A stretch of DNA of 64,000 nt from Magnolia sinica (Eukaryota; Streptophyta; Magnoliopsida; Magnoliales; Magnoliaceae), in contig NC_080584.1 in NCBI RefSeq assembly GCF_029962835.1, positions 84,224,862 through 84,288,861 on the forward strand, given 5' to 3'. The notes beneath the pieces are model-generated. The model was not told the DNA's origin, did not search any database, and saw nothing but the letters and a program-made list of their open reading frames with translations. Shown piece by piece: positions 5,552-54,975 of this stretch. How positions within the stretch are numbered: position 1 is the first letter of the stretch; each line of letters starts with the position of its first letter. Both the position numbers and the translations under genes were made by a program.

Positions 5552-5647
5552 CATGATCACATGCACACATGCACGCCCAAGGCCCACTTCTTCAGAAAGA
5601 TGATCACATGCACACATGCACGCCCAAGGCCCACTTCTTCAGAAAGA
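5552..5647. repeat. 47-bp tandem duplication at the LINE 3' end
   Basis: The sequence GATCACATGCACACATGCAC...CTTCTTCAGAAA occurs twice in tandem and nearly perfectly. It covers the last codons and stop of the minus-strand LINE RNase H frame, so the C-terminal segment containing KKWALGVHVCM is duplicated. Confidence 0.85.
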
Positions 5648-6095: not shown

Positions 6096-7130
6096 ACCTG
6101 GCCTGGCTCATTTAACTATATCAACCAACCCATTGTGAGGACCATCTAAGTTTCGACTCACGAGAGGACTACCTTGCCTATGCAAACCGGACTTGGCTAG
6201 CATCTTCGACACCCAATGGATCCACCACTTAATCTTAGAAATGCACATTGCAGCTTTCACAAGCCTTTGATCAAATCTGGCCCTATTTCTCGCCAACTAG
6301 ATTTCCAACAAGATGCAGCAGGTCGTGAATTTGTGTGATAGGGCCAAGCCTTCTCCAGCAGGGGACGAAGACCACCATTGTCTGAGTCTGATGTCAACCG
6401 ATTGGTTGGGGAGAATATCAATCCCGAAGATGATACGGAAATGGACCCATATGGCCGAAGCTAGTGCACTATAGAGGAAAAGGTGATGGATTGATTCAGA
6501 GGTAGGTCGGGACTGAGGGCTTTCATCACAGCAAATGCACCTGGAAACAAGTGGAATACCTTTGTCTTGAATGCGAGCATCCACCGACACTGCCCCTTAA
6601 AGAAATCTCCAGAGAAAGGTTGAGATCTTTGGGGGCCATTTCCTTTGACTGAACATAACTTACCAACCCTTGCATGTGGATCTCTACCTACATAACTCCC
6701 AAGCTGTTTGGACAGAGAAATTCCCAGAGGGGCCTAGGGGCCAAATACTACGGTCGTTGTCCCTCGAAGTAGCAAAACCACCCTACAAAATGGAGTCGAC
6801 ATCCACCTGCAACAGGAAAGAGAACACCGAAGATGGGGGGAGCAGCCCATTAGGGCCCAAGAAATCAGGGATCTTCAAGTCCAGCAGATCATCTGGCACC
6901 AGTCTGATCGTCTTCTGCAGCAGAGGAACAAGGCCTGACCCTTCTGGAACCTTTACCGACTAACCAGAGAACATTTTCATTCACCTGAGGAAATAGAGCT
7001 CTGATTTTTTCCCACAACGGCGAGGCAAAGGAGGTAGCAGTCCTCCTATTGCTAGATTGAAGATCTGCTTGGTATTTGGATTTCACGAGAAGAACCTAGG
7101 GCCCATTAGCTTCACTGAACTTCACATCCT
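6096..7130 (-). pseudogene. LINE ORF2 zinc-binding/linker region
   Basis: Minus-strand frames at 6,297-6,590 and 6,108-6,296 read on from one another. They contain a Cys-rich stretch (VSRCICCDESPQS then ESIHHLFLYS), which fits the reverse-transcriptase zinc-binding (zf-RVT) domain, followed by the usual WWIHWVSKML linker before RNase H. The segment from about 6,600 to 7,130 is the degraded junction with the reverse transcriptase. Frames are broken in several places. Confidence 0.7.
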
Positions 7131-7770
7131 ACACCATTTTAAGTCCAGTAGCTTTCACCAACTCCTTGAGTTTTCTAATCCCCAGACCATCGTCTACTAT
7201 AGGTCTCAAAATTTTCTTCCAAGAAATCCAATGCAGCTTGTGTTTTGCTTCCGACCACCCCCAAAAAAAAACCTTGCAAAGCTTTTCTCCAATTTGGTGA
7301 GGATCTGGGACAGGACCATTGAAGCTACCATTATGTGGAGAGGGATACTGCACAACACGTGTCTTATTAGAGTAGATCTACCGGCCTGTGACAGATGTCT
7401 TGATCTCCACCCGCTAATTCTGGCTTCCACCTTATCCACTAAGAATTGAAAATTAGCTACCTTAGCTTTACCTCTGATAAGAAGGACGCCCAGGTAGTTA
7501 ACTCCCACTCTAGATTTGCTTATGCCAAGATGACGCTCGATGGATCTAACTCGGCCCTTTGAGCTTATTCGAACACAAAAAACAACTCTTCCTACGATTG
7601 ATCCTTTGGCCCGAGACCTGTTGGAAATAATCCAGGAAAGCCTTGACCAAAAGAAGGGAGGACTTACTACCATTAAGGAATAAGAGTGTGTCATCTGCGA
7701 ATAGCAGGTGGGAGGCAAGCGGGCAGTCTCTTCTTAATTGAAACGGTTTGCACCACCCTCTTTCCATCAT
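7130..7770 (-). pseudogene. LINE reverse transcriptase, second half
   Basis: Minus-strand frames at 7,546-7,770, 7,206-7,718 and 7,129-7,353 together contain CPLASHLLFADDTLLFLNGS, the reverse transcriptase active site (F-A-D-D). Downstream come FLDYFQQVSGQRINRRKS and the thumb-like region (NYLGVLLI, ISGWRSRHLSQAGRSTLI, LHIMVASMVL). The frame shifts at least once. It joins the other RT half at 9,825 once the intervening LTR is removed. Confidence 0.85.
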
Positions 7771-25150: not shown

Positions 25151-26275
25151 ACAGATATTACTCAAATCCAAAAGGGAATAAAAGAAATAAATTCCAATAA
25201 ATTTGAAAATAAATTGATTGATAATTGTCTAATGTGTGTCCCCATTATACCATTAATAAAGAAAAAAAACTAAATCAAAATTCGTAATCATAAAAAATAG
25301 CAAAATTAAAAATCGTAATTATAAAAAAAATAGCAAAATTAAAACTCTAATAAAAATCTTAATTCTAATAAAACTCTTCTAATGGCTAATTTCTAAAAAT
25401 AAAAATTTCAAATAAAATTTTACTAGAATAGTCATATCATGATTACAAGTTATTTCTTTCAAAATAAAAATAAAAATCTAAAACTCTAAAAATAATGAAA
25501 TATAAAAAATTAAAATTACTAAAAATGGTTCCTCCCCCCCCCCTTTAAATTTCATTTTCGAGATGAAAAGCCTGTTCGTTGATGAAACGGACAGACATGG
25601 CCCACTTTGTGGGTTGGTTCACTTCCAATGACCCGTTACAATAAAGATTGATAGGTTATGCGCCCGGTAACAATACTCGGATCAAAAGTTATTTTCAATT
25701 TACGATTCACCCTCTTTTGGTCCAACCATGCTAAGAATGTATCAGTGATAGGTCATACATCAAAACCCATATAAGTCTACCTAAAGCACCCAAAATCTAA
25801 TCCACACTAGCCCAAGACCCATTCTTCACCATCCTAACCTCACCACAAGGCCGGATTAATGGAAAAAAAAGAGCAATCGAAATCATATTTCTCTTTGGCC
25901 TCATCCTACAACGAGAACCTGACACATGGCACTAGGGACATCCTTGAGTCTGTTGTGCCCCGAAATTAGGGTCAAAGAAGGTAACACAAATTCAATTTTC
26001 GCTATCATGTTGAATCTAGGGATGTGATGATGGTCACATGACCACGAGGAGTAATGTCTTAAATAGGGTATCGGTCTAACATACTCACTACCGGAAATTA
26101 AATTTCCTCTAATGATGACTCACTCTTTTAGTTGATTATTTTCCATTGTCTTTCATCCGAATTATAAAATTTACATCCTAGGAGTCAATAAAAGGAGACC
26201 ATGTATCACATGGGGTCTTAAAAATCAATCACTTTAATCCATGTGATATTTCACTTTTCACTTACCCATTTATTC
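25150..26275. other. AT-rich intergenic DNA
   Basis: 25,150-25,530 is very AT-rich with repeated AAAAATCTTAAT-like words and a short poly(C) near 25,531. 25,560-26,275 is of ordinary composition. I recognise no gene or element in it. Confidence 0.5.
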
Positions 26276-26765
26276 ACTACCAAAAAAACGGGTAAAGGCT
26301 ACGGATTTAATCCGTAGCCATAGACCTAAGGCTACGAATTAAGTCCGTAGCTAGTCCGTAACACGACCGTCGTCGTAGGTGCCATAACGATAGGTTTGGA
26401 ACCTATGGCTACGGATTAAAACCGTAGCTATAGGTCTATGGCTACGGATTAAATCCGTAGCCTTTTCCCTTGTAGCAAAAAACATAAACAGCTATAGATA
26501 TTATTTGTAGCTGAAAGTCCGTAGCAATAGGCCAAAATTTAAAAGGCTATACCTATCTGATTATTGGCTACGGATTTAATCCGTAGCTATATGTTAAATA
26601 GCTATAGATATAATCCATAGCAATTATATCTGTAGCAAAAACTTCAAACAGCTACGAATATTATTTGTAGCTGAAAGTCCGTAACAATATGCCAAAATTA
26701 AAAAGGCTACACCTGTCTGACTAGTGGCTACAATCAGTATCCGTAGCTATTTTGTACATTGAAAA
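26276..26765. repeat. CACTA left subterminal repeat region
   Basis: GGCTACGGATTTAATCCGTAGC-type palindromes and half-sites (GCTATAGATATTATTTGTAGC variants) occur about ten times in both orientations. These resemble the subterminal transposase-binding repeats of CACTA elements. Confidence 0.85.
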
Positions 26766-27000
26766 ATTAAATCACCTGTTCATTCAATTACCACCTGTTC
26801 CTTCAAATACCACCTGTACAATCATTCATTCATTCAATTACAATCATTCATTCATTCATTCAATTACAATTACAATCCTTCATTCATTCAATTACAATTA
26901 CAATCCTTCATTCAATTAATTGCAATTACAATCAATTACAGTTACAAATACAATAATGCTGAAAATACAAATCTTTGGCTTCATTAGAGAAATGTGCTCG
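26765..27000. repeat. ATTC/CAATTACA-rich tandem repeats
   Basis: Imperfect tandem words TTCATTCATTCAATTACAAT and CACCTGTTC repeat over about 180 bp inside the CACTA element. No coding potential. Confidence 0.75.
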
Positions 27001-27199
27001 ACTTCACCGAATTTCAGCAGCTTCGTATATTCCATCATCCTACAAACAGTCATGTCATTCATAAATTAGAATGCCCATTAGAGAAAAGAAAGACAGTGAA
27101 AGAAGTGCATCACGTATAACCACTTTTTTTTTCTTAATGAATTAAAAAAAAAAACTCAAAGAGGAATAAAATTGACACAAAAGAAATGGTCTCACCATA

Positions 27200-30100
27200 T
27201 GATTATAGGTTTAGGTTTGGTTTAGGTTTAGGTTATAGGTTTAGGTTAAGGTTAGGCTATAGGTTATAATTAAGTTTAGGTTATAGGTTAAGGTTTAGCT
27301 TATAGATTGTGGTTTAGGTTTAGGTTAAGGTTTAGGTTATAGGTTATAGCTTTTGGGAAGTTGATTACAGGTTAAGGTTTAGGTTTAGGAAATCGGGTTC
27401 GGGTTCGGGATCGGGTTTAGATTTGGGCTTTCAAGTTTAGGTTTAGGTTAGGGAGTTGAGATTAGGATTAGGTGTAGGTTTGGGTTTAAGAATTTGAGAA
27501 TACATTTAGGTTTTAAGTTTAGGTTTAAGTTAAAGGTTTTAGGAAAGGTTACAAGTTTAGGTTAGGTTTATGTTTAGGTTTAGGTTTAGGTTATAGGTTA
27601 TAGCTTTAGGGAATTGAGAATGGGTTATGGTTTAGGGAAAGGTTAGGTTTAGGTAATAGGTTTTGGGATTTGGGAATAGTTTTAGGTTATAAGTATAGGT
27701 TTAGGTTAGGTTATAGGTTAAGGTTTAGGGATTTGAGTTTAGGCTATAGGTTTAGGTTTAGGTTTAGGTCTAGGTTGAGGTTTATGGAATTGAGTTTAGG
27801 TTATAGGTTTAGGTAATAGGTTTTGGGATTTGGGAATAGTTTTAGGTTATAAGTATAAGTTTATGTTAGGTTATAGGTTAAGGTTTAGGAATTTCAGTTT
27901 AGGTTATAGGATTAGGTTTAGGTTTAGGTTTAGGGATTTGAGTTTAGGTTATAGGTTTAGGTTTAGGTTTTATGTTTAGGTTTAGGTTTATGTTTGAGTT
28001 TTGGGATTTGAGAATGGGTTCGGGTTTAGGTTATAGGTTTTGGAATTTGAGAATGGGTTCGGGTTTAGGTTATAAGTTTTGGTTTTGGTTTAGGTTTATA
28101 TTATAGGTTTTTAGATTTTGGGATTTGGGAATAGTTTTAGGTTATAAGTATAGGTTTAGGTTAGGTTATAGGTTAAGGTTTAGGGATTTGAGTTTAGGTT
28201 ATAGGATTAGGTTACGGTTTCGGTTTAGGATATAGGTTTTGGGATTTGAGAATGGGTTCGGGTTTAGGTTATAGGTTTTGGTTTTGGTTTTGATTTTGAT
28301 TTTGGTTATAGGTTTAGGTTTAGGTTATAGGTTTTTGAATTTGAGAATGGGTTCGAGTTTAGGTTATAGGTTATGGTTTTGGTTTAGGTTATAGGTTTTG
28401 ATTTAGGTTATAGGTTATAGGTTTATGTTAAGGTTTAGGTTTAGGTTAAAGGTTTTGGGATTTGAGAATGAGTTCACGTCTAGGTTATAGGTTTTGGTTT
28501 TGGTTTTGGTTTAGGTTATAGGTTTTGGTTTAGGTTATAGGTTTTGGAATTTGAGAATGGGTTCGGGCTTATAGGTTTTGGTTTAGGTTATATGTTTATG
28601 TTTAGGCTATAGGTTTTCGTTTTGGTTTAGGTTTAGGTTATAGGTTTTAGTTTAAGTTATAGGTTATATGTTTTGATTTAGGTTATAGGTTATAGGTTTA
28701 GGTTTTAGGTTTTGGTTGTGGTTTTGATTTAGGTTATAGGTTATAGGTTTAGGTTAAGGTTTTAGGGAAAGATAATAGGTTTTTATTTAGATTATAGGTT
28801 ATAGGTTTAGGTTTTAGGTTTAGGTTTAGGTTTTGATTTATATTATAGGTTATAGGTTTAGGTTTAGGTTATAAGTTTTGAGATTTGAGAATGGGTTCGA
28901 GCTTAGGTTATAGGTTTTGGTTTTGGTTTTGGTTATAGGTTTTGGGATTTGAGAATGGGTTCGGGTTTAGGTTATAAGTTTTGGTTTTGGTTTAGGTTTA
29001 CGTTATATGTTTTTGGATTTGAGGATGGGTTATGGTTTAGGTTTAGGAAATCGGGTTCAGGTTCGGGATTAGGTTTAAGTTTGGGTTTTCAAGTTTAGGT
29101 TTAGGTTTAGGTTAGGGAGTTGAGATTAGGATTAGATGTAGGTTTTGCTTTAGGGAATTGAGTTTAGGTTATAAGTATAAGTTTTAGTTTAGGTTATAGG
29201 TTTTGGGATTTGATAATGGGTTCAGGTTTAGGTTATAGGTTTTGGATTTGAGAATGGGTTTAGGTAATAGGTTTTGGAATTTGGGAATAGTTTTAGGTTA
29301 TAAGTATAGGTTTAGGTTAGGTTATAGGTTAAGGTTTAGGGATTTGAGTTTAGGCTATAGGTTTAGGTTTAGGTCTAGGTTGAGGTTTAGGGAATTGAGT
29401 TTAGGCTATAGGTTTAGGTTTAGGTTTAGGTTGAGGTTTATGTTATATAGGTTTAGGTTATAGGTTTAGGTTATAGGTTTAGGTTTAGGTTTAGGTTTAG
29501 GTAATAGGTTTTGGGATTTAGGAATAGTTTTAGGTTATAAGTATAGGTTTAGGTTAGGTTATAGGTTAGGTTTTGGGATTTGAGTTTAGGCTATAGGTTT
29601 AGGTTTAGGTCTAGGTTTAGGTTATAGGTTAAGGTTTAGGGATTTGAGTTTAGGCTATAGGTTTAGGATTAGGTCTAGGTTGAGGTTTAAGGAATTGAGT
29701 TTAGGTTATAGGTTTAGGTTTAGGTTTAGGTTGAGGTTTAGGGAATTGAGTTTAGGTTATAGGTTTAGGTTTAGGTTTAGGTTTAGGTAATAGGTTTTGG
29801 GATTTGGGAATAGTTTTAGGTTATAAGTATAGGTTTAGGTTAGGTTATAGGTTAAGGTTTTGGGATTTGAGTTTAGGTTATAGGTTTAGGATTAGGTCTA
29901 GGTTGAGGATTAGGGAATTGAGTTTAGGTTATAGGTTTAGGTTTAGGTTTAGGTTGAGGTTTGGGTTTTGGAATTTGAGAATGGGTTCGGGTTTAGGTTA
30001 TAGGTTTTGGTTTTGGTTTAGGTTATAGGTCTTGGGATTTGATAATAGGTTCAGGTTTAGGTTATAGGTTTTGGATTTGGGAATGGGTTTAGGTAATAGG

Positions 30101-30900
30101 TTTTAGGATTTGGGAATAGTTTTAGGTTTTAAGTATAAGTTTAGGTTAGGTTATAGGTTAAGGTTTAGGGATTTGAGTTTAGGCTATAGGTTTAGGATTA
30201 GGTCTAGGTTGAGGTTTAGGGAATTGAGTTTAGGCTATAGGTTTAGGTTATAGGTTTAAGTTAAGGTTGAGGTTTTGGGTTATAGATTAAGGTTTTAGGT
30301 CATGGGTTTTGGTTTAGGTTATAGGTTATAGGTATAAGTTAAGGTTTAGGTTTAGGTTTAGGTTTAGGTTTAGGTTATAAGACATAGGTTTAGGGAATTG
30401 AGAATAGATTAAGGTTTAGGTTTAGGAAATCGGGTTTGGGTTCGGGATCGGGTTTATGTTTGGGTTTTCAAGTTTAGGTATAGGTTTAGGTTAGGGAGTT
30501 ACGATTAGGATTAGGTGTAGGTTTAAGTTTAGGGAATTGAGAATACATTTAGGAAATAGGTTTAGGTTTAGGTTTTAGGTTTTAGGTTAAGGTTATATGT
30601 TCAAGTTTAGGTTATAGGTTTAAGTTAAGGTTGAGGTTTAGGTTATAGGTTAAGGTTTTAGGTCATGGGTTTTGGTTTAAGTTATAGGTTATAGGTATAA
30701 GTTAAGGTTTAGGTTTAGGTTTAGGTTATAAGACATAGGTTTAGGGAATTGAGAATAGGTTAAGGTTTAGGTTTAGGATATCGGGTTTGGGTTCAGGATG
30801 GGGTTTATGTTTAGGTTTTCAAGTTTAGGTATAGGTTTAGGTTAAGGAGTTAAGATTAGGATTAGGTGTAGGTTCAAGTTTAGGTTTTGGTTTAGGTTAA
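27200..30900 (+). repeat. 3.7-kb telomere-like (TTTAGG)n degenerate array
   Basis: Almost the whole stretch is built from GGTTTA, GGTTATA and GGTTTTG words, with scattered TTTAGGG heptamers of the plant telomere type. It is not a pure telomere tract. A longer unit, containing TTGGGATTTGGGAATAG then TTTTAGGTTATAAGTATAGG, recurs near 27,660, 27,820, 28,120, 29,270, 29,510, 29,800 and 30,100. A second phrase (TTTGAGAATGGGTTCGGG) recurs many times. It lies wholly inside the CACTA element. Open frames across it (29,242-29,463 and 29,804-30,028) only spell Tyr-Arg-Phe-Arg repeats and are not genes. Confidence 0.95.
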
Positions 30901-30939
30901 GGGTATGGTCCCTGCAAAGCAAATACAGATATAAATACG

Positions 30940-31240
30940 GCCATCCGACATAAATGCCAGGCCCCTCCAATGTTGTCCATAAAAAATGGACAGCTTCATC
31001 ATGGTCATAATAGCGGTTCCCTCTTTCCAGGGAACCTCGCTCTTCCGAATAGCTCCGACGCACATCCGGGTCTGCTCCATTAATTTCGATCAAATACATA
31101 AACACGGCCTATCCAAATGGCCAGGCCCCTCCAATGCTGTCCATAGGAAATGGACAGCTTCATCATGGTCATAACGGCGGTTCCCACCTTCCAGGGACCC
31201 CCGCTCATCCGGATAGCTCCGACGCACATCCGGGTCTGCT
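30940..31240 (-). repeat. Duplicated ~130-bp block with conserved reading frame
   Basis: Two direct copies (about 30,957-31,078 and 31,124-31,232) share about 90% identity. On the minus strand both stay open in the same frame, through ADPDVRRSY, ERGSLE, GN, YDHDEAVHFLWT and LEGPG. I do not recognise the protein. Differences include Ser/Pro and Arg/Gly changes that keep the frame. It may be a captured exon that was duplicated inside the CACTA element. Whether it was ever coding is unknown. Confidence 0.6.
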
Positions 31241-31486
31241 CGAATGCTTACTTTATAAAAGAAAATCTCCCCTGTTTTCTCAAATTTTCCATTTCAATCT
31301 TTTTTGGCCCAAATCCATGTCAATGCATGAGAGTCATGCATAAACATGGATTTTAAGCAAAATACATGAGGAAAATTACAACATAGATATCATGCACACT
31401 ATATCACATAATGTATTGTTTGATGAACTACACATGTGCATTCTTGACAAGACACGTATTGTTGTCCATCTGCATTAACACTTACC

Positions 31487-31559
31487 CTTTGGTTGGTAAA
31501 ACCCAAGTAATCAGCTCCCATCATGAATTCAAGCAGAGCATATTTGCATCCCACAACAA
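31487..31559 (-). pseudogene. Possible captured exon, unidentified
   Basis: On the minus strand a TTATTTTAG acceptor is followed by 73 bp of open frame (reading GCKYALLEFMMGADYLGFTN) and a GTAAGT donor. The clean splice signals fit a captured exon. The protein family is not recognised. Confidence 0.4.
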
Positions 31560-31853
31560 CTAAAATAATAATAAAAATAAAATCAAGCACATACCTTCCA
31601 TTAAAAAGGGCAACATGTGTAAGCGTGGATTAGCCAGATTGAATTGTGTAGGGCCCTGAAAATTCAAATTGATTCAGAATTAGTCGTTGGTATCCTCATA
31701 AATATTGAGTAGTCTAGTATACAGTGTGTGCATTGATCAATGTTGAGTAGTATATAGGACAATCCGAAAGCCGGCTGCCAAGAACTATTTGTCTGTATAA
31801 AGAAGAAAACAGTACATGCCAAGCCCCACCCAACAAATGACCCATAATAATAC

Positions 31854-31940
31854 CTTTTGAATTACCCGGCACCCATACATCTGAAGGCTCCAAGGTTGAA
31901 TGTGGCCAGTAAGCTGATTTGCTAGTTCTTTTCTCTACTC
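31854..31940 (-). pseudogene. Captured PUMILIO (PUF) exon fragment
   Basis: Minus-strand translation gives [20 protein letters not shown] then RVIQK, followed directly by a GT donor (GGTATTATT). [13 protein letters not shown] is a hallmark Pumilio-repeat sequence of plant APUM proteins; here a Trp replaces the usual Leu. Only one exon end is recognisable, so this is a fragment and not a functional PUF gene. The parent exon border appears to be retained, which suggests capture from genomic DNA. Confidence 0.75.
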
Positions 31941-32544
31941 AGGGCTTCCATGATAAAAAAAACTGCAAAGACAAACAATAACCGAGCATTTTTATATCAT
32001 AGGCGAACGAGTTCATACAACCAACATGAGAATGAATATAGAGACTACCAGATCACCAGCCTACTGCCTTTTTAAAAAAGATAAAGGAGGGCAGATGAGC
32101 AGGGGAAAAAGAATTGAAGGTATCTTTACGGGGAAAAGAAAAAAAAAGGGAAGGAAACTAATGATTGTTTTTCTAGAAAAATCATACCTTTTAAATAACA
32201 TAATTGCCAAACACATCAGTCATCAATGTTGGAGCATGTGGGAGAACTTCTTCAAAAGCAGAATAACTACAAAGTGAATCAAGAATCAAAAGGAGCATAA
32301 ATGACAACAACTAGCATATGGTAGCCACATCCACCATGAGACTTGGAAGTTTTACACAGCTGTAAAATCCTACAAGGAACAAACTCCTCATCTTGCCCCT
32401 AATCTATCTGAACATCCTCATTTCAACTATAATCATCCTAGATATTTATAGAGTTGTGTTATTTTTTTAAATGATGGAATTTTATTAATAATCCAAAAAG
32501 CCACACAAATACCTGCAGTTATAAACAAATTACTGTTGCAAGCT

Positions 32545-32800
32545 TACCTGGAGGAATCAGACCAACAACAATGTAAGGTTTCTCAAATTACTCGAAGCAT
32601 GAGGAATCAGACCAGTCAGATTGTTTCGTTGCAACATCAACTCAACCAAATTCTTGAGATTCCATAATTCTGTAGGAATTGTACCTGAAATCTAATTTAT
32701 AAAAAAAATACAAAATTTTAAGCATGGTCAAATTACCCAAAGCAGGAGGAATTGGACCAGTCAGAGAGAAGTTGAAGATCCTTTTCTTTCTCAAGTAGTG
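32545..32800 (-). pseudogene. Captured LRR protein fragment
   Basis: Two minus-strand stretches fit the plant LRR consensus (LxxLxLxxNxLTGxIP). Near 32,690-32,560: SGTIPTELWNLKNLVELML, then RNNLTGLIP. Near 32,780-32,720: NFSLTGPIPPALGNL, then TMLKIL. They are separated by an AT-rich gap. The lower-coordinate block ends in a GTAAGC donor at 32,545. This is a piece of an LRR receptor-like protein. No kinase domain is present. Confidence 0.7.
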
Positions 32801-33242
32801 AAGCAACAAGGGAGCTTAATGCCTACAGAATATATGCATTTTCTTCAATACCTCTACCACAAGAACATATGCATTTTCTGACAAACTGCAAAAAAGAAAC
32901 TATTTGAGGTTATTCATGAAGTAAAAATTGATATAAGATGGACAAATGACAAATGACAAGTGAGAGTAAGACCCAAAACACTGCTTCATAAGGTCCTTTT
33001 TTTGTAATAAGCATCCAAAAAAATCCATTAAATAAAATACCCTATAGTTCCTCAGTCTAAGTTGCAAGTGGGACCCATGTCTAGAAAAAATTATTGTTAA
33101 ATCTGACAGGTTTTTCTAACCTTTTCTCAACATTTCAAAACAAGCGATGGACAGATGGTTATGAGCTTCTAATCAGCGCAATTTCGAGTCTTTAAGAACA
33201 TCCAATGAAAATAATGTATCGAATCCACTGTGACTTACTTCT

Positions 33243-33501
33243 TGTGCTAAGCCTTTGTGCCTTCATCAGATTACCAAGGTTGCTATGAGCATCAACCTGC
33301 CAATAAGGGGAAGATCTGCAAATAGTAATTTCAATGCATCTACAACAAAAGAAGGAAACTAAATGATAAAACAAAACAAGGATTCACCAAGCGAGGGTTC
33401 AATGCAAGAGCCTGGTGACAACACCGGGCTGCCTCATTAAGCCTTCCTTTCCTCATATATGCACTAGCTAAATTTGACCACGCATCACAGAAATGGCGAA
33501 G
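33243..33501 (-). pseudogene. Captured SECRET AGENT (O-GlcNAc transferase) exons
   Basis: Two adjacent minus-strand exons match the TPR region of plant SECRET AGENT O-linked GlcNAc transferase. Exon 33,388-33,501 reads FCDAWSNLASAYMRKGRLNE and CCHQALALNPRL, between a TTTGCAG acceptor and a GTGAAT donor. Exon 33,243-33,296 reads VDAHSNLGNLMKAQ after a TTGGCAG acceptor. A one-base insertion then shifts the frame (CAAAGGCTTAGC where CAAGGCTTAGC is expected). The intron between them is short (91 bp). Only these two TPR exons are present, so this is a captured gene fragment inside the CACTA element. Confidence 0.8.
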
Positions 33502-33999
33502 CTGCAAATCATAAAGAATAAACAATATACATATGCATATATATGTATAACAGAAAGCAGATAAGAAAGGTAGTCTTGTCCTCTAGTCAGTGATAAAGAT
33601 CAACAAAAAAGGGAAACATCATAAAATGTCTCCTTACAATACTTAACACAGAGAAAATCATAATTAAAATAGTTGAATCAAGATAAGATCCAATAGATAA
33701 AAAGGAGGATCATAGATGCATTCTTTTGTTTCTAATTTGTGAAACAACAAACAAAACCACCCAACTCATAAGAGAGAAGAGAAAACTGAGTCTTTTCCTC
33801 TAAATATCAACTAGGCCTGGCAATGGGCAGGCCTGGGGCTGGTTCAGCGTTGGATTTTGAAATAGACAGGCCAGGCCTATTCAAAATATCAATTTTGCCT
33901 AGCTCTGGCCCACCCCATTACCAGCCATAATGTCAATGTTCTCTAAGTAGCATGCTAATGTCTGTTTGGATCTGCCTATTTTTGATCTCATACCTTAAA

Positions 34000-34580
34000 A
34001 TGATATGAGAAAAGGGATGTACAGCTTGAATAAACAGATAGGTCACAGTGGCCCCCACAGATCTGCCCGTATGTTGTCAGCTGGGGTGGGACGCATTCCG
34101 CGTCCATTCCCTGAATACTCCCTTATGGAGAAATCTCAACCCTTCCATTTGGCCTGCAAATGGCCTTTCCATGCTGGGCCTGTCAGCTCAAAGTATCATT
34201 TCCCCTGCACATGTTTCAGCCATATCCTAAGGTCCAGGATCATATATTTCATCTGTATAGTTAGTAATCCGATTCCGGACCCAAGATCCACTAGGCCATT
34301 CCTACAATTTGTTGTCATTGGGAAATTCAACAATAAAGAGGCCAAAAGTTGAACGGCTTCAATCCTCCAATGCTGGAGAGTTTTGGGACGTATAATCTGA
34401 GACCGGGCCCCTGGAGGTGGAAATGGATTGCATCCAGCCCCTGCCTAGATAGACTTGGTCCAGGCAGGGGCTCTGTGGAGCCCACTGTGATGTATGGGTT
34501 TATACCACTCCATCCATCCATTTTGCCAGATCATTTTACGGTCTATCCAATATTCAAACATTATGTGAATGTTTCCTAAT
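34000..34580. other. CACTA interior with MITE-like fragments
   Basis: No gene is recognised. Words of the palindromic MITE family are visible (ccactgtgatgtatgggtttataccactccatcc near 34,483-34,516). Flanking 33,510-34,000 and 34,580-36,150 are unassigned AT-rich sequence with a poly(T) tract near 35,780-35,797. A possible tRNA-like B-box (GGGTTCAATCC) near 34,922 is not enough to call a SINE. Confidence 0.4.
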
Positions 34581-36164
34581 CTGATCCTAATCCAATACAC
34601 TGGGTGCATCCAAATGGAGCATCATGGAAGTAATGAAATTTGTCTCAAATTCCTTACCAGTGGGTGGCAAAATATTCTTCACAAAGAAGAAAATGGCCTT
34701 CTCATGGGTTAGATTCATACTCTTTCGAATCAACTAAACAAATTGCCCCACAGTTAAGTCAGCAGGAACAAGATACCTGCACTCAAAAAATAGCATGTGC
34801 AATAAATCAAGCCTCAAGAATGGCTAAAGGAAACATCCAACCAAAAACAAAATGTAGTGTGTTAGATATCTCCCGCTAGTTAGATGAGCAGACAGACGGT
34901 GTGGTGTGTGTGAGTGATCCAGGGTTCAATCCAATGCCTTTTTTTAAAAGAGGAAACAACAATTTATTATAAAGCCCATAAAGCGAGAAAAGAATACACA
35001 TAACTAGCACATGGGATGGGCCATATACCATATCCTGTGGCCAACTGGACAATGTAATCCTTAGATTGAAGGATTTTGAAGGGTGAAAATGGGAAGTCAA
35101 ATTAACTTCAGTTGACTTCTGATAACCATCCACTTTCTTCCCCAAAATTCCAATGAAATGATTTTGGGACATGGCCCATCCAAGGTAGAGACTAGAGAAC
35201 CTACCCAATGATAGGTTTAGATTAGGTAAACGTTGTAACATGAACAAAAAACAAGTCACATTATGGGAAAGAAATTGACAAATTCCATTTGCTAATTCAA
35301 TTATAAGATGATTATAAGAGTAAACACTATGCCATGTTTTGTAATATGACAACTTGCACATTTTTTCTCTCAAAATAATGGTCAGTGTAGCTGCTGCAGC
35401 TGTCGAAGTTCTATACTACTGTGTCAAAAGAGAGAGACCAACTAGACTGAGAGCATTCATCATTCATGGTTGAGACACATGTTAATGCAAAACTTTAAAA
35501 GCATATTAGACAGTAGGAAAGGCCCATGTGTGTTAGCAGAAAACTACTCAGGTTATAACACTGTTACTAGACCATTACAAATATGTAGGTACACAGATAT
35601 TTTCCCCTAGGATGGGACTCGCATGATGAATAGACCAGGAGACAAAAGGCTGGCTTCTCTAAGCAATAGGTGGTTCTCTATGGCACCTTTCTACTAACTA
35701 GACCCACCAGCCTTTAAAAAAACTCATCATTGATAGACAGAGCATTTCACCTAATACATGCATTGCAGATTGACACGACTTTTTTTTTTTTTTTTTTTGG
35801 AGCAAGCAACAAAAGCAACTAAATCAAAGAAAAGATTAGGGAAAAGAAGTCCTAATCCAAAGGGCTGATTGGTGGATTCCTTTAGAGGCTAGGCCCACTA
35901 CCAAATCATTAGAACCTTTACTTGCAATATTAAACAAGTGGCAATAGAAACATACAAGTGGCAATAGAAACCTGTATACAAGTGACAATAGAAACATACA
36001 TGCTTCAACAACAAAATAAAATTAAAATTAAAATTAAAAACTTGAATCAAGATGACAAAAAACCTGAATCAACATGACAAAAAACTTGACATTTAAAAAC
36101 CTGTCTTTCCAATGGACAAGAAACAAAGCATCTCCTGAAAAAACTGAGTTCTGTTGATTTGATT

Positions 36165-36557
36165 TGTCTTGACCTTCCATCTGAAATGCAGTGATGCCAT
36201 TCTCATTACCAGCAAACTGCATATTGATTAGAGATTAGCTAGATTCCTTGCTACTTTCAATTGGTATTGTAATTTCAGCAAGTTTGATTAGAAGCATTCA
36301 TGAATATAACCTCAACATTCTTTTCAAATGCAGATTGGGGCCTGCATATCAAATGTGAAGCTTGATATCTATAAAAGATCAGATTAAACAGACAAAACTA
36401 AGATTTCTAATTAACGATTAACCTCCATATAAGGCTGGAGAATTCCCTTCTCCATTCTGAATGGAACACGCAGAATGCTTGCATTATCTATTCCAAGTAC
36501 TTTCTCAAGATGTTGATTGCAAGTAGTACCGACTACATCAGGTAATAGTCCAGTCAC
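36165..36557 (-). pseudogene. Captured exons, one PNPase-like
   Basis: On the minus strand, an exon at 36,423-36,557 (135 bp, in frame, AG/GT borders, reading LLPDVVGTT and [15 protein letters not shown]) is of unknown origin. After an intron of about 200 bp, an exon starts at 36,216 after ATGCAG and reads FAGNENGITAFQM. This resembles the KVAGNE-GITAFQMD segment of plant organellar polyribonucleotide nucleotidyltransferase. It loses similarity after about 13 residues, so the match is suggestive only. Confidence 0.45.
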
Positions 36558-36895
36558 CTATGTTCCACAGCAAAAAAAAAAAAAAAAAAAATCATCATGA
36601 GAAAGGTAAAAACGAATGAGAATTAGAAATTAGAAGAGAAATCTCATGTTTCTGGCTTCTCCGGACAGGGTGAAACCAAAACCTGGAAATGGGTTGAGCG
36701 TTTTCCCTTCCAATGTCCTCAGCTGACAACATTCTCTTACACCCTCCCATTATGGATCAGTAGGAGCATCCCACGGCTGCAGCTTGGCGGCGGGGCCCAC
36801 TAGGGGAACAGGATAACTAGCATGTGCACTCTGCACAGGCTAGATTCCCCATCATATATAACAACCACATAAAAATTTTCAACTTCATCAAAAAA

Positions 36896-37400
36896 TCACC
36901 ATCCCCATCGAATTGAACGAGGGAAAATGGCTAAAGTAAAAAAAAAAATTATATAATATGAAAAGGGAAAAAGAAAAGATATTCTAAAACAGAAAACCCT
37001 TGATTTGAAACAAGAAAAATTAGCTAAAACTCCGAATCGAGCTCTCGATGGGGCAAATGTTGGTGTCGATCGGTGGAGGTGGTGACGCTGGTGGAGTAGG
37101 GACGGTGGCTGTGGACGAAATTTGTGGTCACAGGGGCTGCGGCTGGTGGAGGAGACGAGGTGCTGACGAGGATAGGATGAAAGGAGTTTCGAAAACCCTA
37201 GCACATGGTGTGATCACATATCAACGAGGAGTTTGCAGCGAAAGGGGGTTTTGAAAACCCTAGCGAGAGAGAGAGAGAGGTTGGGAAACAGGGGGTGCGA
37301 GAGAGAGGGATTGGGTTTTGGGAGAGGCGCGGGCGCGAGAGAGTGGGTTTTGGGAGAGGGGTAGGCGCGCGAGAGAGAGATTTGGGTCGCGCGTGGGATT
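36896..37400 (-). other. Captured 5'-UTR/first-exon-like region
   Basis: On the minus strand this reads like a plant gene start: CT-rich leader, repeated CTCTCTCTCGC, two CTAGGGTTTT boxes, then a possible ATG near 37,204. The encoded 102-residue frame (Ser/Pro/His-rich) has no recognised domain. It may supply a promoter or leader for a chimeric minus-strand transcript through the exon fragments. No transcription evidence is available. Confidence 0.35.
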
Positions 37401-37439
37401 TTTTTTTGGGGTTGACGGACGACACTTCTAAGTCCTTAA

Positions 37440-37720
37440 TCTTAGCTCTTGTGGGGCCCACCGTGATTAATGTTATTTATCTACTCCGTCCATTCATTTT
37501 AAAAGATCATTTTAAGGGTTGATCCAAAAAATGGGTTAGATCGAAGCCATAACCGGACCACATAAAATATTAACGATAGAAATTTATTTTTTATTATTTC
37601 TTATGGTGTGGTCCACTTAGACTTTTAATCTACCTACTTTTTGGGCTCATCCACTGACATTATATATCAGAATTTAGGGGCGGCTTAGATAAAATACATA
37701 TATTCCAATGGGCCGCATGG
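37440..37720. mobile_element. MITE-like element inside CACTA
   Basis: Left: 'gtggggcccaccgtgattaatgtt', then the central 'tggtgtggtccacttagac', then 'caatgggccgcatggagcc' at the right. This is a shorter, diverged member of the palindromic family, inserted near the CACTA right end. Confidence 0.55.
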
Positions 37721-37764
37721 AGCCCCTTAAGCACCATCAATCTCTAATAAGAAGTGGTGGAATG

Positions 37765-37889
37765 TATGTTTTAGCTACGGATTAAGCAGATTTTAGCTAC
37801 GGATTAAAACTGTAGCAACTTAGCTACGGTTTATATCCGTAGCTAAAAGCTTCTAAGGTCCGTAGCCTTTACTCGATTTTTTGGTAGTG
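37765..37889. repeat. CACTA right subterminal repeats
   Basis: AGCTACGGATTAA, AGCTACGGATTAAAAC, AGCTACGGTTTATATCCGTA and GGTCCGTAGCC occur within 120 bp of the right terminus. They mirror the left subterminal motifs. Confidence 0.85.
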
Positions 37890-37967
37890 ATTACAAAAAT
37901 TTCATTGGCTTCAACTATGAAAATCCTAAAGTCTCCTTATTTTTTAAACAACATAATCTATCTCCAT

Positions 37968-38005: not shown

Positions 38006-38671
38006 AAGATCCTAAAAATCCTAGCCATCCAAGCATAGGTAATTGGCATCCGAGGAGAAAATCAAGAAATTCTTGTCGGTTGAGGTCACAGGAAAAGTGT
38101 GTTCGTTGAGAAGTTCCTGTATGTCAGGGTCACAGAAATTTCATGTTGGTAGAGAAGTTCCTGTAGGTTTGTGGTCACAAGAGATTTGTGATTATCGAGT
38201 TCCTGTATACAAGGACAGGCAATTTGCACGGCCAACAAAGATACCGGACTAGTTATCTACATAATGTCATGTCTTAGATCATGTATTATGCTAACCATAT
38301 ATATGAGCTGTGCAAGAGATGTGAAACACGAGTTGTTGCTCTAGACATGCATTCAACGGTATTGATTTGTACGTACATCACGTTCCAGCCCTCTATATTG
38401 ACCGGACTCCACTATAGTGCCTGTTTCACACCGCACATTGGACCCCAAGCTCTTTTGGGTCCACTATGTTACTGTCCTTCAAGTGCACCTCGATGCTAAG
38501 CTCTGGAGCCAAAACTCAGGTGGCCCCCACCACCATGATTGTATCTTTCATCAAATCCACTCTCTTATGTCTTAAAGTCGCTTCCTTTAATTAAAAGTCA
38601 TCACATCAGGGTTGCAGAGGCCCTGTAAAAAGGGGTCACTTTCTACCGTTGATCATTCAAAACCCAGTGGC
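38003..38671. other. Upstream region of the terpene synthase gene
   Basis: No gene is recognised. It contains three spaced copies of a GAGAAGTTCCTGTA-like word (near 38,110, 38,154 and, as CGAGTTCCTGTATA, 38,198), each preceded by a GTCACA word. This is the presumed proximal promoter. Specific cis-elements were not confirmed. Confidence 0.4.
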
Positions 38672-38678
38672 TATAAAT
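38672..38678 (+). promoter_or_regulatory. Putative TATA box of the terpene synthase
   Basis: TATAAAT within GTGGCTATAAATGCGG lies 114 bp upstream of the chosen ATG, a normal spacing for a plant promoter with a short leader. The leader that follows is T/C-rich. Confidence 0.55.
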
Positions 38679-38785
38679 GCGGACCATTCCCTCCTTGCTT
38701 AGCTAGAACACCAGCTCTTGTGTTGGTGAAGATTTCTCTTTTTCTTCTTCTTCCTCCTTTTTATTTTATTTTATTTTATTTTCCA

Positions 38786-39762
38786 ATGGAATCCATTGAG
38801 GGTCTTGTTAAGGAGATCAAGGAAGAGATTTTCTCACCGGTTGATCTCTACTGCTTTGTGGTGCCTTCTGCTTATGACACAGCCTGGATGGCCATGATCC
38901 CACACCCTCAACATCCTAACCGTCCAATGTTCTACAAATGTTTGGACTGGATTCTCAGTAATCAGAGGGAGGAAGGGTTTTGGGGAGAGCCAGGCCAGTC
39001 CAATGCCCCCACCATACAGTGTCTGTCTGCCACCCTGGCTTGCATGGTTGCACTCAAGAGATGGAATGTGGGGTCCACCAACATAGTGTTAGGTATTATT
39101 TATGGTTTTGATATGAACTCTCTTGTATCCACATAAAATGCAAACTTTTCAGTATCTCCCTGAGAGCACACGTGAGGACTGAAAAACAGGTTTTCATCCT
39201 TATGGGTTGGAATTTGGGAAACCAAAAGTTACTGGCCTTACATTTGGAAATGAGGAAATTGGTTATTATATCTAAACCCCTCATCAGGCTATCTGATTGC
39301 TTAGGTTCCTTCTGTCAAAACTCGGGCCGACTTGTGCTTCATTTTCCCGCAGAATTTAGACCAATGGTTAATTCTCTTTAACCGTTCATTTGTTGGGTGG
39401 CCCACCTAATTATCATATTAGCCCGTTCTTCGACATGACATTGATTTTCATTTTCCCGCAGAATTTAGACCAATGGTTAATTCTCTTTAACCGTTCATTT
39501 GTTGGGTGGCCCACCTAATTATCATATTAGCCTGATTCTTCGACATGACATTGTCCCTAATCTGAGCTCTCCTTCCAAACAGGCAATCAGAAATTGCAAG
39601 CATGGGGACCGAATTTCAGAATCGTTTTCGCTTAGTCCCAAATTTAGATTGGCTGAACAGTCTTAACCATCAATTGTCCAGGATTTGTTTAAATATAACC
39701 ATCATTTTCATTTTTAACCACCCAATTAATGTCTGCAAATCTAGTAGTCATTTGACTTCAAG

Positions 39763-50489: not shown

Positions 50490-51780
50490 CTTGGGCCTCA
50501 TCAGCCGTAATAAGGAGGCTCTACACTGCATGTTTTGGGTCTGCAATACCCAAGACAAATCAGTCGTGGAAGGAGGTCTCGCACTCCCTGTTTTCCCTCT
50601 GCCAGGTTTGTTTGATCGTCAGTTGTGGTGGGCCCATAACCCACAGGTCCAGTTTTTTTTTCAGAAACAGTTTCCAGCAAAAAATCTGCTTTGAAAAAAA
50701 ATTCGATTGAAAAAATCTGTTTTCAAAAATCAGATTGCAGCAACAACCTGTTATCAAAAAATCAGATTGCAAAAAAAAAAAAAAATCCGATTCAAAAAAT
50801 CTGTTTTCAAAAATCAGATTGTAGCAACAATCTGTTATCAAAAAATCAGATTGCAAAAAAATCCGATTGAAAAAATCTATTTTCAAAAATCAGATTGCAG
50901 CAACAATCTGTTATCAAAAAAATCAGATTGCAAAAAAATCTGTTTGCAAAAAAAAAAAAAGAGATTGCAGCAAATAAAAAATAAAAAATCTGATTTGTAT
51001 GAAGAACCCACTATGGAAGAAGAAGCCGCTTTCACCAATGAAGAAAAGATCACTCTAAAAAATCAAAGGAAGAAAGACAATAAGGCTTTGTTTCTCCTCT
51101 ATCAAGGGTTGGATGAATCCACCTTCGAAAAGATTGCCGAAGCAATATCAAGCAAGCAAGCATGGGATACCCTTAGCACCATCTTCAAGGGTGTAGATCG
51201 AATGAAGCGGGTTTGCTTTCAAACATTAAGAACCGAGTTTAAAGCGACTCACATGAAGGAAGGTGAGAATATTACTGATTATTTTTCACGTTTGCTTGTA
51301 ATTGTCAATAATTTGAAAAGAAATGGTGAAAAGATTGAAGATGTCCGAGTTATTGAATAGATACTTCGATCCCTCACAACCAAGTTTGAGCATGTAGTTG
51401 TGGCGATCGAATAATCAAAAGATATTGAGAAACTCTCCATTGAGGAGTTGATGGGATCGTTGCAAGTTCATGAGCAACGAATGCAGAAGAATGCCAGTTC
51501 CATGCCGATGGAACAAGCTTTAGAGTCAAGATTGACTCTAAATAATAATAATGGTGGACGTGGAAGTTCACAACGTGGTGGACGTTTTGCTAACAATCGC
51601 GTAAGAGGCAAAGGACGCAGATACCAATAAAGCCATGGCCAAAACCAGTAGAAAAATACCAATTTCCATGGAAGAGGAAATGGTAGAGGTAGATCTATAC
51701 ACGGACGAGGAAATACAAAGAACATCCAATGCTACAATTACAACAAGCTTGGCCATTAAGCATCTGATTGCTGGAGCAAG
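50490..51780 (+). pseudogene. Copia gag
   Basis: After a leader containing four or five copies of an AATCAGATTGCA...AATCTGTT repeat (50,700-50,960), the frame reads EEAAFTNEEK, FLLYQGLDESTFEKIAEA, AWDTLSTIFKG, TEFKATHMKEGENITDYFSR and later a Gly/Arg-rich tail with a CCHC-like knuckle (CYNYNKLGH). The stops at 51,358, 51,412, 51,628, 51,649 and 51,757 all lie in one frame. The knuckle stop replaces a residue inside the zinc finger, so Gag would not be functional. Confidence 0.85.
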
Positions 51781-51783
51781 CCG

Positions 51784-53110
51784 GTGACTCAAGACGAGCT
51801 ATCCAACTATGCCGAAGCATCAAGCCATGAACAAGAAAGCTCCACACTTCTCCTTGCACAAGAGAAAGGTAGTGATCAGCATGATGTATGGTATCTCGAC
51901 ACGGGTGCAAGTAATCACATGTGCGACGACAAGAAACTCTTTGTGGAACTCACAGAAGGAGTTCATGGGGATGTAACGTTTGGAGACTCATCAAAAACAC
52001 CTGTGAAAGGTAAAGGTAAAATCTAAATCTTTCAGAAGAATGGTGTTCCAAACTATATCTCTAATGTGTACTATGTGCCTAACATGAAAAGTAACATACT
52101 GAGTCTCGGACAACTCCTCGAAAAAAAGTATGTCATACACATGGAGAACTCTTCTCTTTCCATTAGAGATATGCATGGACGTTTAATTGTAAAAGTCCAG
52201 ATGGCGAAGAACCGTATGTTTCCTCTCCATATAAACACAATGCTTGAGAAGTGTTTTTATGGAAAAGCAAAAAATGATTCCTGGATGTGGCATCTTCGCT
52301 TTGGCCATCTAAATTTCAGTGGCCTGAAACTTCTGTCATCATCAAGCATGGTGCATGGTTTGCCTACTATTGAAGCTTCAGAACATGTGTGTGAGGCGTG
52401 CACACTTGGGAAACAACAAAGGAACTCCTTTCCGAGTGGAGTATCCCGAAGAGCAAGAGAATCGTTGCAGTTGGTTCATAGTGACATCTGTGGACCATTA
52501 GATCCAATCTCTCTTGGAGGTAATAAATACTTTATTACCTTCATTGACGATTTCAGTAGAAAATTATGGGTGTATATAATCAAAGAGAAGTCTGTTGCTT
52601 TTACTATTTTTAAAAATTTTAAGGCCCTTGTTAAAAAAGAAAGTGGTCTTAAAATCAAAACTCTTCGATCTGACAGAGGTGGGGAGTACACCTCAAATGT
52701 TTTTCGAGAATATTGCAAGGAACATGGCATTAAGCAACAACATACTACAGCGTACACGCCACAACAAAATGGAATTGCGGAACGGAAGAACCGCACCATC
52801 CTCGATATGACGAGGACCATGCTGAAGGAGAAAAGTCTGCCAAAGAATTTCTAAGCAGAGGCAGTTGCATGTACTGCATATCTGCTCAATAGGTGTCCGA
52901 CTAAGAGTGTCAGATTCCAGACACCGCAAGAAGCATGGAGTGGATACAAACCGAGCGTGGCACACCTTAAGATCTATGAGTGTGTTGCCTACGCTCAAGT
53001 TCCAGAAGCAAGAAGGAAAAAGCTTGATGATCGTGGCGAGAAGTGTATCTTCATCGGCTACAGCGAAGAGTGAAAGGCATACAAGCTCTACAACCCACTA
53101 ACCAATAAGC
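51784..53110 (+). pseudogene. Copia protease and integrase
   Basis: Protease: WYLDTGASNHMC, with the D-T-G catalytic motif. Integrase: the zinc-binding segment (WHLRFGHLNFSGLKLL, then CEACTLGKQ), and a catalytic core with LVHSDICGPL (Asp), LRSDRGGEY (Asp) and NGIAERKNRTI (Glu). All three D,D,E residues are present. In-frame stops occur at 52,024, 52,852 (where family members have Trp before AEAV) and 53,071. The reading frame is otherwise continuous through this region. Confidence 0.9.
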
Positions 53111-54975
53111 TGGTGGTGAGTAGAGATGTGGTATTTTGTGAGGAAGAAGCATGGAAATGGAACGAGGGAAACTCAGCCAAAGAAAAGCAAGTCGAGGTCG
53201 AAGAATATGAAGAAGAGAGACATGAGAACAAGAGCAGACACCCACATCACCCCCTTCGAATCACAGAAGTCCAGGAGTACGCTCCATCTCTCCTGAAAGT
53301 ACTTCATCAAATCAGAATTCATCCAGCACATCTTCATCCGATTCTCCTTCACCGTTGGCTCCTATTAAAATGAAAAGCCTCAACGACATCTATGCAGAAA
53401 CTGAGGAAGTGAATTTATTCTGCCTGTATGCAGACCATGAGCCTTTCACATTCGAGGAGGCTGTGAATGAAAAATGTTGGAGAAAGGCTATGGAAGAAGA
53501 GATTCATGCCATCGAGAAGAATCAAACATGGGAGTTGACCTCACTCCCCAAAAGCCAGAAGACCATTGGTCTCAAATGGGTGTACAAAATCAATAGGAAT
53601 GCCGATGGTAAGATCGAACGATATAAGGCAAGGCTCGTAGCAAAAGGCTACAAATAGAAATATGAGGTAAACTATGAAGAAGTTTTCGCTCCAGTTACTC
53701 GCCTTAACACTGTAAGAATGATTATCTCCCTTGCAGCTCATCACAGTTGGATGATCTACCAACTGGATGTGAAATCTGCATTCCTAAATGGGGTACTCGA
53801 AGAAGAAGTATACGTTGACCAGCCTGAAGGCTTTGTCATGCAAGGGGAGGAACACAAGGTGTATCGGCTGAAGAAAGCCTTGTATGGGTTGAAGCAAGCT
53901 CCCTGTGCTTGGAATGCACGGATTGACGGTTATCTTCAAGAGAATGGCTTCGTCAAATGTCCGTATAAGCATACAGTCTATACAAAGAAGAATGCCTGTG
54001 GTGATATCCTTATCACTTGTTTATATGTTGATGATCTGCTATTCACTGGGAACAATCAGGCGATGTTTGAAGAATTCAAGCAGGCTATGTTCAAAGAGTT
54101 CGAGATGACTGATGGTGGATTGATGTCTTTCTTCTTGGGCATTGAAGTGAAGCAACAAGTCGGCGGCATTTACATATCCCAGAAGAAGTACACAAAGGAA
54201 CTTCTTGAGAAGTTTCAGATGGTCGACTGTAAAGCCGTAAATACACCTGTAACAATAGGCCTGAAGCTCACAAGAGATGGAGAAGGAAGAAATGTCGACT
54301 CAACCCTATTTAAGAGTCTAATCAGAAGCTTAAGGTATCTCACAATCACTAGGCCAGATATAGTCTACAGTGTTGGGCTTCTAAGCCGGTATATGGAAGC
54401 CCCAAAAGAGTCACACTGGCTAGCTGCAAAACGAGTACTAAGGTATATCAAAGGGACTATTGAATTCGGTCTTTTTTATGCATATGATGATGAAGCGATA
54501 TTGTATGGATACTCTGATAGTGATTGGGGTGGTGACCAAGATGAAAGAAAAAGTACCACAGGCTATGCTTTTTATCTTGGGTCGACAGCATTTACATGGA
54601 ATTCAAAGAAGCAGAGTGTAGTCGCCCTATCCACATGTGAAGCTGAGTACGTAGTAGCTTCATCCACTGTATGTGAGGCGATCTGGCTAAGGAATCTGCT
54701 AAAGGAGCTGAAGCATCTACAGGAGGAATCCACTGTTATATATGTGGACAACAAGTCGGCAATCAAACTTGCCAAAAATCCAGTTTAGCATGGAAGGAGC
54801 AAGCACATCGACACAAGATATCACTTTCTTAGAGATCAAGTAAAGCAGAAATTGGTAAAGCTGGAATACTGTCACACCACTGAGCAAGTGGCAAATATCT
54901 TCACCAAAGCATTGCCAACTGACACATTCAGGAGACTTAGATCAATGCTTGGAATGAAGCCGGTTTTGGTTTGAA
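53111..54975 (+). pseudogene. Copia reverse transcriptase and RNase H
   Basis: After a Glu/Lys-rich linker there is one frameshift near 53,240. The RT then reads TWELTSLPKSQKTIGLKWVY, FAPVTRLNTVR, YQLDVKSAFLNG, YGLKQAP and LYVDDLLFTGN, with the catalytic Y-V-D-D. RNase H reads YSDSDWGGDQDERKSTTGY, VALSTCEAEYV and IYVDNKSAIKLAKNPV. Stops at 53,655 (in KGYK*KYEVNYEE) and 54,786 interrupt it. It ends naturally near the polypurine tract. Confidence 0.9.

Follow-up and report, generated by a model that had tools for sequence, protein, structure and literature searches.

A probable Pack-CACTA transposon of Magnolia sinica with fragments of five host genes on one strand

We analysed a 64,000-nt stretch of Magnolia sinica DNA (C12:84224862-84288861, referred to below as the window) against a genome of 1,838,573,281 bases in 127 contigs, and found in it an element of 11,615 bp that is very probably a non-autonomous Pack-CACTA transposon of the En/Spm type, with pieces of five host genes in its interior and copies at no fewer than 12 sites. 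Genome searches score the best candidates only, and all genome counts given here are therefore lower bounds; contigs are cited by C numbers and loci by L numbers. The element belongs to an already known kind, and the most novel lead is the spread of NRPE1 pieces described below.

The left terminus of the element begins CACTACCAAAAAA at 26275 and an inverted copy of it ends at 37889, the terminal inverted repeats being identical in 29 of 31 bases, with ATT as a 3-bp target duplication on both sides. No further occurrence of CACTACCAAAAAA was found in the 64,000-nt window with one mismatch permitted. Subterminal GGCTACGGATT/AATCCGTAGCC repeats, with the core GGCTACGGATT, are present at 26296-26760 and 37771-37866. 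Inverted repeats starting with CACTA, a 3-bp duplication and subterminal direct and inverted repeats place the element in the CACTA (En/Spm) superfamily, and it shares with Pack-CACTA elements the host-gene fragments between its ends, the lack of a transposase model in the scanned part and the multiple copies at different sites. An earlier note, made from the letters of this stretch alone, had described the CACTA ends, the subterminal repeats and the ATT duplication, all of which are retained here, while its start at 26276 is corrected to 26275. No transposase model was identified at E<=1 in six frames of 30903-37400 (26275-30902 and 37401-37889 lay outside the scan), and movement would be in trans, by the transposase of another element. 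Genome-wide, a 30-base terminal pattern gave 281 matches versus none for the reversed-pattern control, and the 201-bp left end occurs in at least 40 copies at 95-100%, the window copy counted (best 40 of 1,490 candidates).

The block from 31460 to 37889 is present at no fewer than 12 places on 10 contigs, including the window (best 40 of 8,190 candidates), with pairwise differences of 1.5-5.2% among the 12 copies. The window copy, C2_110, C9_86 and C8_83 form one group whose members are 1.5-1.7% apart. Two copies are incomplete: C2_49 was matched up to 37043 only, and C8_83 lacks 32897-33078. Siblings with the same termini, which the earlier note had expected, do exist, with both ends found in the same siblings, and the target triplets are identical at the two ends in four of five copies checked of 12 (ATT, GAA, CAT and ACA), which indicates that the copies arose by transposition. 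With a rate of 4e-9 per site per year, or 1.2e-7 per 30-year generation, as given in the available text of PMC10999834, the window group would be 1.9-2.2 million years old and the divergence of the 12 copies up to 6.8 million years deep.

All gene fragments lie between 31844 and 36692 on the minus strand, where they follow one another in the order sucrose synthase (SUS), ATG8, SECRET AGENT (SEC), LRR receptor kinase and PUMILIO (PUM); their coordinates and best-matching host genes are collected in Table 1. SECRET AGENT we take to be the plant name of the OGT gene. Pfam matches above their own cut-off were obtained for ATG8 (PF02991, E 6.6e-12), sucrose synthase (PF00862, E 8.2e-09) and TPR (PF00515, E 5.5e-08), and matches under the cut-off for LRR (PF13855, E 0.0013) and the PUMILIO repeat (PF00806, E 0.0091); the PUMILIO fragment was also found by PDB chain comparison (E 1.6e-06). 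The protein matches anticipated in the earlier note were thus recovered by Pfam and PDB and backed by host-gene DNA matches, and its PUMILIO, LRR and SECRET AGENT assignments agree with DNA matches to host genes of 83.2%, 92.1% and 93.6%, respectively. In a PDB search the SEC host gene corresponds to OGT (E 5.8e-85) rather than to SPINDLY (E 7.1e-29). What that note had taken for a possible PNPase fragment is sucrose synthase, PNPase being ruled out since no such model was found at E<=1 in three minus frames, and the ATG8 fragment had been overlooked. A plus-strand control over 30903-37400 returned a single match (E 0.81), and further plus-strand genes in this interval were rejected. A minus-strand frame of 179 amino acids (34876-35415) was taken as chance; it is located inside the stretch matching the ATG8 gene introns.

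Table 1. Features of the Pack-CACTA element in window coordinates.
Feature	Position	Strand	Basis or best-matching host gene
Left target duplication ATT	26272..26274		flanking triplets compared
Left terminal inverted repeat	26275..26305	+	29/31 match to right end
Left subterminal direct and inverted repeats (GGCTACGGATT...AATCCGTAGCC)	26296..26760		repeat motif matches
Degenerate telomere-like array rich in TTTAGG/TTATAGG	27206..30902	+	repeat of the family's left arm
Junction at a missing segment	31458..31460		segment (1652 bp in C15) missing from the window copy and its three close relatives
PUMILIO fragment, intron kept	31844..32262	-	gene C9:1868600-1871400, 83.2% over 419 window bp
PUMILIO exon b	31962-31854	-	frameshifted
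PUMILIO exon a	32262-32188	-	begins mid-exon; in-frame TAA
LRR receptor-kinase fragment, intronless	32564..32765	-	gene C17:61659200-61660900, 92.1% over 202 bp
SECRET AGENT (OGT) fragment, introns kept	33183..33953	-	gene C3:19849491-19853110, 93.6% over 607 and 87.3% over 166 more window bp
SECRET AGENT exons	33501-33388; 33296-33239 (frameshifted)	-	gene alignment
ATG8 fragment, exon and flanking introns	34551..35937	-	gene C1:13529984-13534254, 91.4% and 89.7%
ATG8 exon	34776-34658	-	in-frame TAG
Sucrose synthase fragment	36357..36692	-	best gene C15:76752300-76754400, 70.3% over 336 window bp
Sucrose synthase exon	36557-36423	-	AG/GT at both ends
Right arm of CACTA, including GA-rich '5'-UTR-like' stretch	36688..37889		joins SUS piece over ~5 bp microhomology (AATGG)
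Right terminal inverted repeat	37859..37889	-	inverted match to left end
Right target duplication ATT	37890..37892		flanking triplets compared

Introns accompany the exons, which indicates capture at the DNA level. No CACTA left-end sequence was found in the fetched stretches of five host-gene loci (L027, L036, L045, L046 and L048). The PUM gene at C9:1.87 Mb may be a paralogue of the true source; in its locus (L045, C9:1868600-1871400) a reverse-transcriptase match (PF00078, E 4.3e-09) lies downstream of both exons and is perhaps intronic. For sucrose synthase, the best gene at C15:76.75 Mb has 70.3% over 336 window bp, with 75-88% to the relatives L022, L023 and L028, and a second gene, at C7:94.49 Mb, matches the window piece at 84.2% over 133 bp. 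Distances to the best genes are 0.046 for SEC, 0.064 for ATG8, 0.079 for LRR, 0.100 for PUM and 0.173 for SUS. Because the distance of SEC from its gene is below the largest distance between siblings (0.054), the clock is not even and no order of capture is drawn from these values.

Parts of the same block occur in smaller carriers elsewhere in the genome. SEC and ATG8 stand beside CACTA left-end sequence in L022, L023, L024 and L026, this end being 69-76% like that of the window element over the longest matches. The first three continue into SUS, and L028, ~30 kb from L026, has the SUS part; the arrangement SEC-ATG8-SUS is therefore seen in L022, L023, L024 and the pair L026/L028, with left-end sequence adjoining SEC in four of these five loci. 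An additional SUS exon is present in L022, L023, L024 and L028. The left ends of L022 and L024 were read, and no PUM sequence separates them from SEC. The PUM block was identified in six loci (L029-L034), two of which (L031 and L032) have CACTA left-end sequence. Because the SEC-ATG8-SUS and PUM parts are found apart from each other in relatives, the window element looks assembled from older Pack-CACTAs. A carrier of PUM and LRR was probably joined to a SEC-ATG8-SUS carrier at 33183, where 62 bp of SEC that are present in L022, L023, L024 and L026 are missing from the window element; the other join of the SEC-ATG8-SUS carrier, with a CACTA right arm, would lie at 36688-36692 in the ~5-bp microhomology AATGG. 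The GA-rich '5'-UTR-like' region, which the earlier note had placed at the upstream end for the minus strand, is part of this right arm and not captured cargo, since it recurs at L037 and L038 (85.9% and 86.9%), where the inner sequence next to the match differs from the gene block. Such joins could result from fusion of neighbouring smaller Pack-CACTAs with loss of the facing ends, and fusion of neighbouring elements is the growth model proposed for Pack-CACTA in the available texts of PMC8903248 and PMC13317346.

Alternatively, abortive gap repair with template switching may have collected the fragments stepwise within a single element, without any fusion of neighbours, a route that we consider possible though clearly the less probable one. 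The microhomology where SUS meets the right arm would fit such repair, as would the lack of leftover internal CACTA ends at the presumed fusion points of the window element and the short tandem repeats at 35934-36000 (20 bp) and 36036-36089 (22 bp) near the ATG8 boundary at 35937. These tandem repeats are possible repair filler. Stepwise collection is less consistent with the sub-blocks SEC-ATG8-SUS or PUM that stand alone at other loci in the stretches read, as fusion predicts, and with the loss at 33183 of the 62 bp of SEC shared by the four carriers.

The captured exons look like passive cargo. Splice dinucleotides native to the genes are kept at 11 of 11 sites in the window copy, in agreement with the intact splice signals reported in the earlier note, and at 127 of 132 sites across the 12 copies (no formal test). 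Among the 12 copies, the 812 exon bases have a diversity of 0.0318 versus 0.0371 for 5,618 other bases, and a proportion of 0.114 of 1000 resamples was as low as the exon value; diversity at codon positions 1, 2 and 3 is 0.0286, 0.0299 and 0.0313. Purifying selection on the captured reading frames was thus not seen in exon diversity or codon positions of the 12 copies. In the window copy, ATG8 and PUM exon a contain in-frame stops, and the second SEC exon and PUM exon b are frameshifted. Stops or frameshifts occur in many of the 12 copies, and joining the exons without LRR gives a longest frame of 67-88 amino acids. A working chimeric gene, in which a right-arm promoter would drive a spliced minus-strand transcript with its protein or RNA under selection, is accordingly improbable. 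The position of all five fragments on one strand, downstream of the GA-rich arm, and the retained splice dinucleotides would suit such a gene, but five of five fragments share a strand by chance in 1 of 16 cases, the NRPE1 fragment of siblings (see below) lies on the opposite strand, and the stops, frameshifts, short joined frames, equally variable codon positions and not clearly reduced exon diversity all speak against it. Because the exons look unconstrained, a selected chimeric protein is unlikely. Transcription in the sense direction could still give a spliced chimeric RNA as in Tgm-Express1, probably without a selected protein.

Between the left end and the gene block lies a telomere-like array of 3,697 bp (Table 1), with units of ~6 bp and G on one strand. 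It is present at the same place of the left arm in all eight close left ends fetched, on six contigs; these are the window (L001), the siblings L002 and L003 and five further elements (L004-L008), for which no gene block is listed among the block matches (best 40 of 8,190 candidates). The combination of array and element, singled out in the earlier note as special, thus reflects a repeat of the family's left arm, and CACTA elements with satellite arrays have already been published (available text of PMC8978399). Origin as true telomeric DNA acquired at a chromosome end is very unlikely: the array is rich in TTTAGG with G on one strand, but it contains merely 16 single TTTAGGG units and no tandem TTTAGGG pair in 27206-30902, and so does not qualify as a telomeric repeat, and its constant left-arm site in the eight left ends also argues against this origin. 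Even less credible is a gene block that is a nested Helitron or Mutator element, although no search aimed at Helitron or Mutator ends was made. Helitrons, with TC/CTRR ends and insertion at AT, often carry gene pieces on a single strand, but SEC adjoins CACTA left-end sequence in L022, L023, L024 and L026, and in the siblings the target triplets border on CACTA ends.

In the window element, C8_83 and C2_110 the left arm is 1.0-3.9% away from those of the five elements without a listed block and 7.9-10.0% away from those of C15 and C4_40. Between these three copies and the latter two siblings the blocks differ by 3.0-3.7%. We therefore suggest with moderate confidence, from these sequence comparisons, that left arms have been exchanged between family members. 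Arms with or without the array may have been swapped.

Several observations weigh against the interpretation of an assembled Pack-CACTA with exchanged arms. Target duplications were examined in the five of 12 copies with both ends fetched, and in the fifth, C8_83, the triplets differ by one base (ATT/TTT). None of 150 PF02992 matches (best 150 of 1,669 candidates) lies within 60 kb of 165 termini, a partial list. The SUS source appears narrowed to the gene family, the particular gene not being fixed. Four of the six PUM-block loci are without a CACTA end in the stretch fetched, the partial carriers were read out to 1-1.5 kb, so that the separateness of the sub-blocks holds for the stretches read, and the lack of leftover internal ends in the window element, noted above, belongs here too. 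A generally faster divergence of the arms is another possible reading, the arms of C15 and C4_40 being 6.5% apart and their blocks 4.0%. C11_33, C4_81 and C2_49 have no array in the 1.5 kb adjoining the block, and the array disagrees with the block tree, as C19_27, the sister of C4_81, has it.

Similar elements are known from other plants. Tgm-Express1 of soybean is a non-autonomous CACTA element of 5.7 kb with exonic and intronic pieces of five unrelated genes and usable splice sites; it lies within a host-gene intron and its splicing into chimeric RNA was shown, whereas for the window element such RNA is hypothetical, and no telomere-like array is described for Tgm-Express1 in the available text (PMC1947982). 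According to the available part of PMC8903248, Pack-CACTA elements of Arabidopsis, maize and rice have CACTA ends, coding DNA from several loci and a proposed growth by fusion, and maize Pack-CACTA elements contain the most distinct loci among Pack-TYPE elements. The family of the window element differs from these in having two sub-block carriers and incongruent left arms in one genome and a 3.7-kb array in the arm. A Chenopodium CACTA with a satellite array and gene fragments has also been described; it resembles the window element in having gene fragments near one end and an array near the other, if the right end of the window element is 5', but its satellite is 171 bp, in contrast to the degenerate ~6-bp units in eight of eight close left ends fetched here (available text of PMC8978399). 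We found no report of a CACTA element with a telomere-like array in the open PMC literature, where the term was seen applied to chromosomes instead.

A sixth gene occurs in relatives of the element. The segment missing from the window copy between 31458 and 31460 is 1,652 bp long in C15 and contains an NRPE1 fragment on the plus strand of the element (PF00623, E 2.8e-16), which also matches RNA polymerase V in PDB (E 1.7e-28). The fragment was read in five siblings (C15, C18, C13, C19 and C4_40), the C4_40 copy containing a stop; in C2_49, coordinates alone place NRPE1 matches near the block. No NRPE1 match was found within the window, and by parsimony on the block tree the window element appears to have lost its piece. 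In the siblings L043, L013, L015, L017 and L044 the NRPE1 exon fragment is followed by a second partial or whole unit; elsewhere NRPE1 units stand in tandem ~245 bp apart, and L050 has 12 near-whole units.

The NRPE1 gene itself, with an open frame of 591 amino acids, is located at C7:95.75 Mb. In a protein search of the genome all 150 scored candidates match (best 150 of 554, the PUM and SUS protein searches having 84 and 44 candidates), and by 20-kb grouping these represent at least 124 loci, namely the gene and 123 others. When 2.3 kb of the gene were used as a DNA query, the gene and at least 39 other loci with 0.9-1.1 kb at 93-98% were recovered (best 40 of 681), and in 24 loci compared with the gene the perfect runs are at least 40 to at least 100 bases long. 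None of 127 tested places with shorter pieces lies within 40 kb of the 39 loci with longer pieces, and three of these 39 are within 15 kb of a scored transposase versus 0.13 expected at random. The NRPE1 pieces as a whole were rejected as members of the window element's family, because no more than seven of 124 loci are within 20 kb of a terminus (partial list); six of these seven are siblings of the window element. Since NRPE1 boundaries differ between loci, there may have been several captures, or one that was trimmed in several ways. At L070 (C6:43286000-43295600), one of the 39 loci with longer pieces, 1,413 bp of NRPE1 at 97.5% lie on the opposite strand to CACTA transposase-type domains, ~2.1 kb past the last of PF13963, PF02992, PF13960, PF13952 and PF03004; element ends were not found there, nor was any match to the window element. 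L071 (C4:39817700-39827600), which is outside the listed block copies, has a telomere-like array and NRPE1 units, with a variant-type CACTA end (CACTACCAGAAAAATGGGG) ~3.6 kb from the units.

Among 20 NRPE1 copies, diversity at the three codon positions is 0.0405, 0.0425 and 0.0393, and pN/pS is 0.71-0.74 among the copies and 0.25 versus the gene. With codon positions nearly equal in these 20 copies, selection on their frames is not clear; the sample leans to intact copies because 15 of the 20 are best protein matches and five are siblings. NRPE1 is the largest of the subunits of RNA polymerase V, an enzyme required for the RNA-directed silencing of transposons. It is conceivable, as a tentative proposal drawn from sequence comparison, that transposons including CACTA lineages captured and mass-copied pieces of NRPE1 as a counter-measure to silencing at the RNA level, though we consider this improbable. 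Transposon proteins that counter silencing are known, such as VANC (available texts of PMC10398659 and PMC5735166), and no account of NRPE1 spread in transposons was found in the open PMC literature. In a related model of camouflage or epigenetic conflict, silencing signals might be common to a host gene and transposon copies nearly identical to it (available text of PMC8978399); here, by contrast, the gene carried by relatives is NRPE1, a part of the silencing machinery itself.

Elsewhere in the window, frames at 50695-54788 resemble by eye a Copia-type retrotransposon polyprotein, and minus-strand frames at 5604-7733 resemble RNase H and reverse-transcriptase parts of a LINE, likewise by eye. 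A plus-strand open frame at 38591-39136, ~0.7 kb right of the element, contains what is presumably a terpene-cyclase-like stretch.

The SEC, ATG8, SUS and PUM pieces may be called as genes by gene predictors. The coexistence of two sub-block carriers and their joined product in one genome is a natural record of how a Pack-CACTA with several genes may come together, and because carriers and product persist together, the fusion model is directly testable. If NRPE1 was indeed captured as a counter-measure, its copies could be a source of small or antisense RNA against NRPE1, or serve as decoys, and in that way reduce silencing, which raises the question of whether a transposon that copies part of its host's silencing polymerase gains by doing so.

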